From: Dissulfurimicrobium hydrothermale
Lineage (GTDB): Bacteria; Desulfobacterota; Dissulfuribacteria; Dissulfuribacterales; Sh68
Direction of reading: 5' to 3'
DNA length: 64,000 bases
Assembly (NCBI RefSeq): GCF_022026155.1
Contig: NZ_CP085041.1
Location: forward strand, 156,306-220,305
In this document: positions 34,846 to 47,567 of the stretch, one piece after another
How positions within the stretch are numbered: position 1 is the stretch's first letter
How the letters are laid out: every line of letters begins with the position of its first letter
Notes under the pieces: generated by a model
The model's database searches: none
Told to the model about the DNA's origin: nothing
Seen by the model: the letters and a program-made list of their open reading frames with translations, nothing else
Program-made: the position numbers and the translations under genes

Positions 34846-35805
34846 CTAGCCCATAACGAAATTGAAGAGATAGCCAACAATTATTATAGCCACGGCTGTT
34901 ATACCAAAAAATACGGCTAGAAGCTCCTTCTTTAGCACCTGGCTCAGGATCATGGCCTCAGGAAACGAAAGGGCGGTCACCGCCATCATAAAGGCAAGGG
35001 TGGTGCCGAGCGGCAGACCCTTGCTCATCAAGGCCTGGACTACTGGGATCACGCCTGCTGCATTGCTGTAAAGCGGAACGCCTATCAGGACCGCTATGGG
35101 CACGGCAAAGGGGTTGCCAGGCCCTGCGTATCTCAGCAGAAAATTTTCCGGCACATAGCCGTGGACAAATGCGCCTACGGCGATACCACCCAACACATAT
35201 GGCCAGATGCGTCGCAGGATGTCCTTTACATAACCCTTTGCGTATTCAAACCTGTCATGCCAGGTCATCTCAGGGACAGCCGCCTCGCCCATCCTTATCT
35301 GCCATACGTAGTCAGCGACGTATCTTTCCATGTTCAGCCTGCCGATGACAATACCAGCAACGATGGCCACTGCAAAGCCTGAAAAGAGATAAAGCGCCGC
35401 TACCTTCCAGCCGAAGAGACCGAAGAGCAGGACGAGCGCGACCTCGTTCACCATGGGAGACGAGATGAGGAAACTGAAGGTCACGCCCAGAGGGATGCCG
35501 GATTCGACAAAACCTATGAAGAGCGGGCAGGCCGAGCACGAGCAGAACGGCGTCACTACACCTAGCGCCGCGGCAAGTATGTGGCCGATTATCAGCCTTT
35601 TATTTCGCAGAAACCTCCTCGTCCTTTCAGGGGTAAAGAAGCTCCTGACAATGGAGACGAAAAAGATGATCACGGTCAGGAGGAAAAATATCTTGGTCGT
35701 GTCCTCGATAAAAAAATGCAGGGCCTCAGTAAGATGCGCCCCAGGATTGAGGCTCAGCCAACGGTAGGTAATGAGATCGGCAAGCAATGTAAATATCTTC
35801 AGCAT
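34846..35805 (-). CDS. ArsP/SO_0444-type permease
   Basis: This 319-residue protein has about eight membrane helices. The family hallmark TPFCSCSACPLFIGFVESG (paired Cys in a helix) is followed by SFLISSPMVNEVALVLLFG. PF03773 members include ArsP, an exporter of trivalent organoarsenicals, and proteins linked to copper or zinc efflux. It overlaps the arsC gene by 7 bases, which favours arsenic. Location in the inner membrane. Confidence 0.87.
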   Translation of the reverse strand: MLKIFTLLADLITYRWLSLNPGAHLTEALHFFIEDTTKIFFLLTVIIFFVSIVRSFFTPERTRRFLRNKRLIIGHILAAALGVVTPFCSCSACPLFIGFVESGIPLGVTFSFLISSPMVNEVALVLLFGLFGWKVAALYLFSGFAVAIVAGIVIGRLNMERYVADYVWQIRMGEAAVPEMTWHDRFEYAKGYVKDILRRIWPYVLGGIAVGAFVHGYVPENFLLRYAGPGNPFAVPIAVLIGVPLYSNAAGVIPVVQALMSKGLPLGTTLAFMMAVTALSFPEAMILSQVLKKELLAVFFGITAVAIIIVGYLFNFVMG

Positions 35806-36233
35806 GACGCCTCCTTAAGACCAAGCCTTTCCCTGACAAACGGGACGAGCTTTTCAAACATCTCGTCCCTTAATCGTCTGAAGGCGACAAGCCTCTCTTT
35901 CTCGCTGCCTTGCGCCTCTGTTGGGTCGTCAAAGCCAAAATGGACCCGCGGCCCCTGATCAGGTATAAACGGGCAGGTCTCGGCAGCCCCGCCGCACAGC
36001 GTGACCACTAGATCAAAGCGCTGGCCGCTGAATTCATCTATGTATTTTGATCGGTTTCGAGAGATATCGATCCCGATCTCGCCCATCACGCTGACTGCAA
36101 GCGGATGGACGCCGGCAGGGCTCGTCCCTGCTGAAAAGGCCTTGACCAGGCCTTTAAGGGCCTGGTTTATGATGCCTTCAGCCATCTGACTCCGGCAGGA
36201 GTTTTGAGTACATAGAAAAAGGATGTGCTTCAT
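35799..36233 (-). CDS. arsC: Arsenate reductase, LMW-phosphatase fold
   Basis: This 144-residue protein has the P-loop CTQNSCRSQ (C-x5-R), and the second redox pair in TLCGGAAETCP, as in thioredoxin-coupled ArsC. It reduces arsenate to arsenite. First gene of the four-gene minus-strand set (arsC, permease, BFD-like, thioredoxin). No arsR is visible beside it, so control is unknown. Confidence 0.92.
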   Translation of the reverse strand: MKHILFLCTQNSCRSQMAEGIINQALKGLVKAFSAGTSPAGVHPLAVSVMGEIGIDISRNRSKYIDEFSGQRFDLVVTLCGGAAETCPFIPDQGPRVHFGFDDPTEAQGSEKERLVAFRRLRDEMFEKLVPFVRERLGLKEASC

Positions 36234-36372
36234 CAGGGTCTCTGTCGAATCTTTTTTAAGATATTAAATAAAAATTTTTATATATAATGTCAAGACAACA
36301 TACGACGGGCAAGAAAAAATTTTCTTGCCGGAAGATAAAAATCCCCATAATCTATCTATAGACAAACATTTT

Positions 36373-36528
36373 TGATGATCTCGTAAAAAATCATTATATG
36401 AGATGGCTAAGCAAAAATCGTAAATGCAAGGTGCGCAGATCCTGGAGAATGAGGCATACTCCCTGTACGCCGCAGTGACGACGGATGCAGCGCAACACAG
36501 CGGTTGGCGACCTTTTGCGACACCATCA
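36373..36528. repeat. MITE-like repeat element (complete copy)
   Basis: A 156-base non-coding element bounded by inverted repeats: TGATGATCTCGTAAAA at 36373-36388 and, inverted, TTTTGCGACACCATCA at 36513-36528 (13 of 16 positions). The left half (36372-36438) matches the region 47500-47567 in inverse orientation over about 65 bases. Short length, terminal repeats and lack of a gene suggest a non-autonomous mobile element or an REP-like repeat. The rest of the gap 36234-36622 has no gene. Confidence 0.72.
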
Positions 36529-36622
36529 CTTTTTGTCATAAAAGATTTTTTAAGGCCACTGAAAAAGGTCAAAGACATAGACACGGTCCATCAGACCGGC
36601 CTTGAATGAAAGGAGTTAAACC

Positions 36623-37372
36623 ATGAAAGCCAATACGGTAGCTGCTGCAAAAGGCGCAGCGTGGTACATCGGCGGATGGAAGATCGTGAGGCCCAGGCTT
36701 GGTATGTGGATATTGCTGTGTCTGGCGTACTGGCTTATCGGCATATTCTTGCACATCCTCCCGTTCTTGGGGTGGCTTGCCTTCTCCCTTCTCATGCCAG
36801 GCATTACAGGCGGACTATTTAAGGCCGCCCACGACTGGGAAACTGGCAGGGAACCCTCTTTTGAACACCTTATCGCGGCCTTTAAAGACCCTGTAATCCG
36901 CAACAATGTCATTATCCTCGGCGCTGTCGGCATCGGCTTCAACATCCTGAGCGCTGCGTTGATATTCATTACCATAGGCGGGCTTGGGATGCACATGCTC
37001 ATGCACAGGGCATATCTAGGTCTCTACTCCGTCGTCCATCTTGCCGTAGGGGCGGTCTTTGTCTCTATTCTACTGCTCATACTAGCGCTCCTGTTCGCCT
37101 CAGCCATGCTGTATGCCATCCCACTTGTCATGCTCACAGGGACAGGACCCATGGAGGCCATGAAACTCAGCATCGAGGCATGCATGAAAAACGTCTTGTC
37201 AATGACCGTCTATGGGTTAATTTATCTGCTTTTGGGCATCCTGACCGTATTCACCCTCGGCCTCGGGTTGATCATGCTCATGCCCATCACCATAACATCA
37301 ATCTATGCAAGTTTTAAGGATATCTTTTCTGAAGAGACAAGACCCCAACATATGCCTGCCGGCGCCGCCTAA
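36623..37372 (+). CDS. BPSS1780-like membrane protein
   Basis: This 249-residue protein has five to six membrane helices and the pattern GWKIVRPRLGMWILLCLAYW, then PGITGGLFKAAHDWETGREP. It follows AAAGGAG. The family (BPSS1780/DUF2189-like) is widespread and of unknown function. It stands alone between the MITE-like repeat and the peptidase gene. Confidence 0.7.
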   Translation: MKANTVAAAKGAAWYIGGWKIVRPRLGMWILLCLAYWLIGIFLHILPFLGWLAFSLLMPGITGGLFKAAHDWETGREPSFEHLIAAFKDPVIRNNVIILGAVGIGFNILSAALIFITIGGLGMHMLMHRAYLGLYSVVHLAVGAVFVSILLLILALLFASAMLYAIPLVMLTGTGPMEAMKLSIEACMKNVLSMTVYGLIYLLLGILTVFTLGLGLIMLMPITITSIYASFKDIFSEETRPQHMPAGAA

Positions 37373-47499: not shown

Positions 47500-47567
47500 C
47501 ATCGCGCGCCTTGCATTTGACGATTTTTGCTTAGCCATCGTATAATAGTTTTTTACGAGACCATCAA
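47500..47567. repeat. Partial MITE-like repeat (second copy)
   Basis: Read on the minus strand, this stretch begins TTGATGGTCTCGTAAAAAAC and contains GATGGCTAAGCAAAAATCGT and AAATGCAAGGCGCGC, which correspond base by base to 36372-36438. Only one end of the element is present. It overlaps the 3' end of the HEAT/TPR gene, whose final codons (TTG ATG GTC TCG TAA) are the terminal repeat itself. Confidence 0.8.

Follow-up and report, generated by a model that had tools for sequence, protein, structure and literature searches.

A MITE of Dissulfurimicrobium hydrothermale with inverted ends and an apparently exchangeable REP-like core

Bacterial MITEs, among them the Correia elements, QMITE1 and QMITE2, and Chunjie of Geobacter uraniireducens, the last compared here by its description in a review (PMC10969869), are described as short, non-coding, multicopy and intergenic elements with inverted ends and target duplications. 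CGTC REPs, which occur in several phyla, had no dedicated transposase according to a 2013 report (PMC3733652). In the sections of that report by Di Nocera and colleagues that deal with palindromes, the CGTC dimers of H. neapolitanus were located within 41-bp palindromes, for which those sections mention no duplications, and the GTAG dimers of A. variabilis were located within long palindromes (PMC3733652). According to the description of QMITE2 of Coxiella burnetii, a GTAG REP lies inside a MITE that has inverted ends and 7-11 bp duplications (PMC5896051).

The element considered here lies in a 64,000-nucleotide stretch of the D. hydrothermale genome (the window), between the divergent genes of a low-molecular-weight phosphatase (35799-36233, minus strand) and of a protein with a DUF7847 domain (36623-37372, plus strand). 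An initial annotation had placed a 156-base element without genes at 36373-36528, with 16-base imperfect inverted ends and a half-copy 11 kb away. The element exists and its coordinates were correct to within one base at each end, but the outermost T (36373) and A (36528) were found to belong to the flanking target duplication, and the true unit is correspondingly shorter (Table 1). The inverted ends are indeed imperfect and extend over about 19 bases. The half-copy was recovered as described, and the only reading frame that overlapped the element was a mechanical one of 106 aa on the minus strand, with no transposase. With a length of 154 bp, no coding capacity, terminal inverted repeats, dispersed copies and a target duplication, the window element is a MITE, and taken as such it is ordinary.

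Table 1. Positions in the window of the element, its parts and its truncated copy
Feature	Position	Strand	Basis or remark
Whole mobile unit, 154 bp, GATG...CATC	36374..36527	+	Boundaries from duplications in own genome and relatives
Left target-duplication copy, ATTTTT	36368..36373	no strand	5/6 same as 36528-36533
Right target-duplication copy, ACTTTT	36528..36533	no strand	5/6 same as 36368-36373
Left terminal repeat A, GATGATCTCGTAAAAAATC	36374..36392	+	End-pattern search; inverted partner 36509-36527
Right terminal repeat C, minus-strand reading GATGGTGTCGCAAAAGGTC	36509..36527	-	End-pattern site G000:C1:192814-192833
Inner repeat B, pairs with C', closes hairpin	36402..36418	+	Covariance model R1
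Conserved core hairpin with tandem G.A mismatches	36439..36486	+	Relatives' alignment: G.A/A.G columns, compensatory pairs
Truncated copy, left part only	47504..47566	-	88% identity over query 1-64

The absence of further copies in the genome had been named as the finding that would speak against a mobile element. The genome, a single 2.03-Mb contig with an estimated completeness of 99.95%, contained 26 matches to the element (E <= 0.001), two of which (L016 and L025) were the halves of one split copy. The closest copy (L002), 132 kb distant and with different flanks, was completely identical over 155 bp, while the remaining near-full copies were 77-89% identical to the window copy. The whole-genome search with the ends that had been recommended gave 42 end-like sites at up to three mismatches, compared with none for the reversed control pattern. 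The 26 matches, the identical copy at an unrelated site and the 6-7 bp target duplications bear out the earlier suggestion that the element is a non-autonomous mobile one.

The split copy (L091, G000:C1:1297300-1299100; copy 1297651-1298704) was interrupted by a degraded insertion sequence, an rve-type fragment, which had duplicated 7 bp of the element, TAGCCAT. The element family is therefore older than this rve-type insertion. An internally deleted copy of about 104 bp (L092, G000:C1:468795-468900) kept both ends and, by eye, came straight after a GC-rich palindrome that has a run of T. In addition, a lone end-like site (L090 376-395, G000:C1:1283275) was followed by a differing interior, GATGGCTGGAACCC...AAGGCGCGAGGAAG, and may represent a decayed relative whose core is different.

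When left and right flanks were aligned, the copies agreed on one register, in which 6 bp outside GATG...CATC are duplicated. The initial annotation had proposed a check for such duplications, and in this genome they were exact in 5 of 20 copies (shuffled mean 0.64, P 0.0002) and at least 5/6 identical in 8 of 20 (shuffled mean 2.63, P 0.0009). These 20 rows comprised 19 of the 22 copies of the flank alignment and the split copy; L012, L016 and L021, which lack an end, and L023-L026 were excluded, and L013 and L020 were included although their ends are doubtful. The duplication of the window copy was 5/6 identical, and the flanks of its identical partner, L002, agreed at only 3 of 6 positions. 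Target sites in the genome were AT-rich with duplications of 6-7 bp, the length also found in the loci of relatives apart from one case of 12, and 39 exact 6-bp duplications gave the target consensus AANNTT. Short B-C' units had an exact duplication in only 1 of 13 cases. Palindromic target sites, suspected by eye, were unsupported in an inverted-flank test.

The window copy alone folded unexceptionally (z -1.08 as DNA, -1.20 as RNA), and the structure of the core appears only when copies are compared. Covariance model R1 matched the window at 36402-36527 with 87.5 bits (E 8.2e-19). For the core alignment, which was fitted to a covariance model, the best 84 of 103 matches were taken and rows at least 85% identical were removed, leaving 59 non-redundant sequences. 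In these the hairpin retains GAGGAATGA facing GCAGTGACGA. The conserved columns were, in order, G.A in 50 of the 59 sequences, A.G in 50, G-C in 59, G.A in 56 and A.G in 59, followed by a pair that was A-T in 55 and G-C in 4, one that was T-G in 36, T-A in 22 and C-G in 1, and a G.A in 57. This central invariance is partly by construction, because most loci were retrieved by the exact core pattern; the A-to-G core variant was present in loci retrieved otherwise (L034, L050, L258-L262). The flanking stems contained many compensatory pair types. G-T pairs outnumbered A-C pairs (139 versus 56 of 2168 cells), an excess suggesting that the folding strand is the plus strand as given.

Compensatory changes and a G-T excess that points to the folding of one strand would be expected of a functional structured RNA or a bidirectional terminator copied for the benefit of the host, its mobility being incidental. 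The placement is also intergenic, with only 5 of 111 cores within ORFs in loci that were 84% coding according to a simple ORF caller. However, no Rfam family scored above the gathering threshold at the element, a simple scan detected no terminator-like site and the presence of the element was patchy, in 23 of 60 genomes. Moreover, the 94 of 111 cores with both neighbors had no orientation bias, the upstream gene being on the same strand in 43 and on the opposite strand in 51 (convergent 19, divergent 19, tandem 56), which gives no indication of a role in host transcripts. An RNA or terminator function as the reason for the copying is thus regarded as unlikely.

The same conserved folded strand, with its G.A mismatches and G-T pairs, is what a REP-like element moved through single-stranded hairpins by a tyrosine (Y1/HUH) transposase of the RAYT kind might be expected to have, and Y1 genes were present in 36 of the 60 genomes searched. 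Movement by such an enzyme is nevertheless very improbable, since there was no Y1 match in the D. hydrothermale genome or in G004, G014 and G053, with 24-56 copies each, and exact 6-7 bp duplications flank elements at both ends. Y1 transposition is not known to make target duplications of this kind.

A driving transposase elsewhere in the genome had also been envisaged, and here the initial annotation was not upheld: neither a transposon whose ends match nor a relative of the candidate driver described below was found. When the 42 end-like sites were inspected for a transposase with similar ends, the only inward pair 0.3-4 kb apart was the split copy. The genome had no match for Y1, DDE_Tnp_1, DUF772, ISNCY_1 or the L402-type protein. 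The transposons identified by the family searches, which included Transposase_mut and rve, were three IS256-type and two rve-type copies, all with other ends. The IS256-type copies (L251-L253; G000:C1:470420-471494, 1579181-1580255 and 1635048-1636122) are near-identical, have ends GAGGGTGTAAAATAA, and each gave three separate reading-frame matches broken at identical places. The rve-domain insertion sequence, which encodes a 290-aa protein, was present at about 15.5 kb in the window (G000:C1:171829-172110) and at G000:C1:430348-430629, the two copies being 99.5% identical over 1287 bp.

The IS256-type and rve-type transposons were the only ones that the family searches of this genome returned, and one of the IS256-type copies stops some dozen bases short of an element copy, so these unrelated resident transposases could be supposed to have moved it. 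Their ends (GAGGGTGTAAAATAA...; TATCTTACC...) are, however, dissimilar to those of the element, and this explanation is very improbable. Most copies in this genome are 77-89% identical to the window copy, and one pair is recent and identical. They are probably near-orphans, and their transposase was probably lost or supplied from outside.

Among 60 genomes, the consensus search detected the element in 19 and the covariance model search in 23, with 24 matches in the genome of D. hydrothermale and a maximum of 58 in G034, where the number of candidates scored was also 58. The exact core pattern occurred in genome contigs in at least 120 stretches. The 80 titles listed for these stretches included five Nitrospirota-type names (Thermodesulfovibrio and kin among them), four Proteobacteria without further rank and one Candidatus Tharpella, the others being Deltaproteobacteria or delta proteobacterium, Thermodesulfobacteriota, and Desulfo-, Syntropho- or Geobacter groups. 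Records with the hairpin core carry Deltaproteobacteria as well as Nitrospirota names, and the ends differ by clade. A single stretch in IMG/VR had the exact core pattern. In viral contigs, one end pattern identified 5 stretches, each with an adjoining G.A core, and a second end pattern identified none. The whole consensus had no match in plasmids or phages, nor did the GATG-type ends in plasmids.

In the loci of relatives, ends of the repeat A type also delimited units, here called shells, with other cores. A phylum search of 395 genomes with an end variant that excludes most right ends of G.A-core shells found this variant in 26, and many of the variant ends enclosed interiors other than the G.A core. 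The 116 shells in the collected loci were classed by core and scored for an exact duplication of at least 6 bp, with the expectation taken from mispaired flanks. Such duplications flanked 22 of 54 shells with the G.A core (0.36 expected), 20 of 30 with CGTC REP cores (0.29), 3 of 3 with CCCTCTCCC cores (0.03), 2 of 5 with GTCATTGCGAG cores (0.05), 1 of 3 with GCGCAAAG cores (0.01), 0 of 2 with GTCATTTCGA cores, and 4 of 19 with other cores (0.15), a class that includes four G.A-core copies of D. hydrothermale missed by the pattern (L001, L002, L009 and L018). Some shells are not independent because they share flanks; with same-flank shells removed, the counts were 21 of 53 for the G.A core and 17 of 27 for the CGTC core.

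The CGTC class was chosen by the pattern GTCA..CC, the other traits of the anatomy being unselected, and its shells were located through their ends, so that they are a sample of shells and not of all CGTC REPs. Of these 30 shells of relatives, 26 contained a hairpin that matches the anatomy described for CGTC REPs, with tag, 8-9 bp stem and 4-5 base loop, compared with 1.9 of 30 in shuffled interiors, and 14 held outward pairs. The CGTC units had a CCA tail in 38 of 41 cases and an exact CGTC in 32 of 41. The kind of core found in the window is different, since such a hairpin occurred in 1 of 54 G.A-core shells. The G.A core was also present in a second type of shell with CAGGCTGTTGAAAAA ends, the CAGG shell, which had an exact 4-bp duplication in 8 of 28 cases, compared with 1.39 expected, and YTAR at the right in 17 and at the left in 12 of the 28. 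Shells adjacent in a row were observed at L318, and L301, L305 and L310 also belong to the loci in which shells with GCGCAAAG or other cores were noted.

The same shell ends thus carry CGTC REP pairs, the G.A core and other palindromes, so that cores interchange; the interior as well as the ends is conserved, and exchangeable. Within the D. hydrothermale genome, the matched copies all have one kind of core, the G.A hairpin.

An insertion sequence with ends of this kind was found in a relative from the same phylum (L402 in G260), where GATGAACTCGTAAAAAGTA and GATGAACCCGTAAAAAGTC, 1.9 kb apart, surround a 583-aa ORF. The protein (P0001) has DUF772 and DDE_Tnp_1_6 domains and scored 154.6 bits against a curated IS1182 cut-off of 270 bits, and because the score is below the cut-off it is called IS1182-type and not IS1182. 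The insertion sequence accordingly encodes a divergent IS1182-type DDE transposase. Its own flanks showed no clear duplication (AAATCTT / AAGAGTG). AAATCTT was present on both sides of a G.A-core copy directly adjoining the insertion sequence (L402 180-420). The second AAATCTT coincides with the insertion sequence's left end, an arrangement that would result if the copy had jumped into the extremity of its presumed driver.

The locus was reached through a weak match in G260 to the ISNCY_1 model, which had matches in 12 of 26 genomes, 2 of them above the cut-off. The strong ISNCY_1 matches in G329 and G365 were rejected as drivers, ends of this kind being absent. The search for relatives of the L402 protein covered 80 genomes and was positive in 6, with an intact protein in one; the copy-rich G004, G008, G014, G015 and G034, with 22-58 copies each, had none. 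Such ends adjoined pieces of related proteins in G030, in G027, in a second G260 copy and, with 3 substitutions, in G080; matching ends were not seen beside the protein fragments of G064 and G083. Six plasmid records contained relatives at 25-37% identity, among them a Microvirga protein, 37% identical, that lies between perfect 18-bp ends GACGGGGCGGTAAAAAGT, with no duplication of this element's own seen. Of the distant relatives examined (25-28% identity), L426, annotated as IS1182, had other ends and L425 had none that were clear. No relatives were present in viral contigs or among solved structures. In the first 214 loci, 11 end pairs around ORFs were listed; in the four of these loci that were inspected, and in the end pairs around ORFs at L305 and L315, no transposase was seen by eye among the ORFs.

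For the second shell type, an insertion sequence in Microvirga lies between CAGG ends that have CTAG on either side, and so does one in Rhizobium, where the gene is broken. The Microvirga protein, of 363 aa, is an IS5-family transposase by score (281.5 bits, cut-off 140). A DUF772 ORF lay beside one CAGG end in G051, a relative from the same phylum, and the second end was not found.

We consider it likely that the MITE consists of a shell moved by an IS1182-type transposase with a 6-7 bp duplication, and of a separable REP-like core that is exchanged among shells. In the proposed scheme, 1) the shell would be the pair of ends, about GAYGRNCTCGTAAAAAGTC, 2) a divergent IS1182-type DDE transposase would cut and join the shell ends, duplicating a 6-7 bp target, AANNTT, 3) the core would be a REP-like hairpin carried by the shell, and 4) a second shell with CAGGCTGTTGAAAAA ends and a 4-bp YTAR duplication, which matches an IS5-family element, would also carry the G.A core. 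The ends, the duplications, the interchange of cores, the conserved fold and the insertion sequence with such ends can be read from the sequences themselves, and from these we infer that an L402-type transposase may move the shell in trans. Several observations argue against this explanation: the L402 and Microvirga insertion sequences lack a clear duplication, relatives of the L402 protein are rare and absent from copy-rich genomes, matching ends were not seen at the fragments of G064 and G083 or in the distant relatives examined, and exact duplications were present in only 22 of 54 G.A-core shells and 1 of 13 short B-C' units, with 3 of 6 flank positions matching at L002.

A broader and more tentative version, less probable than its negation, is that REP-type hairpins in general are interchangeable passengers. 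The G.A core would then be a selected folded module that outlives its ends and has moved between IS5-type (4-bp YTAR) and IS1182-type (6-7 bp) shells, and CGTC REPs would have spread likewise. If so, the core would be a general device, for example for end pairing or element protection, and not the debris of a deleted transposase gene.

The window element would thus belong to a system in which shells and REP cores combine many-to-many. Since CGTC REPs, often as outward pairs, lie within ends associated with 6-7 bp duplications, their spread can be tested directly, and the shell offers a route of movement to a class that was reported without a transposase. A G.A hairpin conserved with two kinds of ends and in two phyla reverses the pattern expected of MITEs, in which the ends are most conserved, and raises the question of the purpose of the core. 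A literature search that covered few subscription papers found no report of shared ends or core exchange; a first set of core-sequence strings had no match in the papers covered, and the matches listed for a second set were unrelated.

As far as the published descriptions of QMITE2 (PMC5896051) and of the palindrome-enclosed dimers (PMC3733652) go, both precede the present case, and a REP as a component of a MITE is not wholly new. Three points appear to be new: a common set of transposon ends with target duplications encloses both CGTC pairs and the G.A core, a single core is found in two shell types, and each of the two end types also occurs on insertion sequences. The shells of relatives resemble the CGTC REP dimers, as their anatomy is given in PMC3733652, in tag, stem and loop in 26 of 30 cases, whereas the window core differs. 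QMITE2 has GTAG, not the G.A or CGTC core, and its description in PMC5896051 concerns one species, with partial alphaproteobacterial relatives, and does not extend to core exchange. The ends of the two shells match those of insertion sequences, of IS1182 type and of the IS5 family, with DUF772 and DDE transposases; unlike these, the window element has no transposase gene. Finally, in contrast to the Correia elements, QMITE1, QMITE2 and Chunjie, it is the interior that is conserved here, in two phyla, and the ends that vary, and the same ends enclose several unrelated cores.
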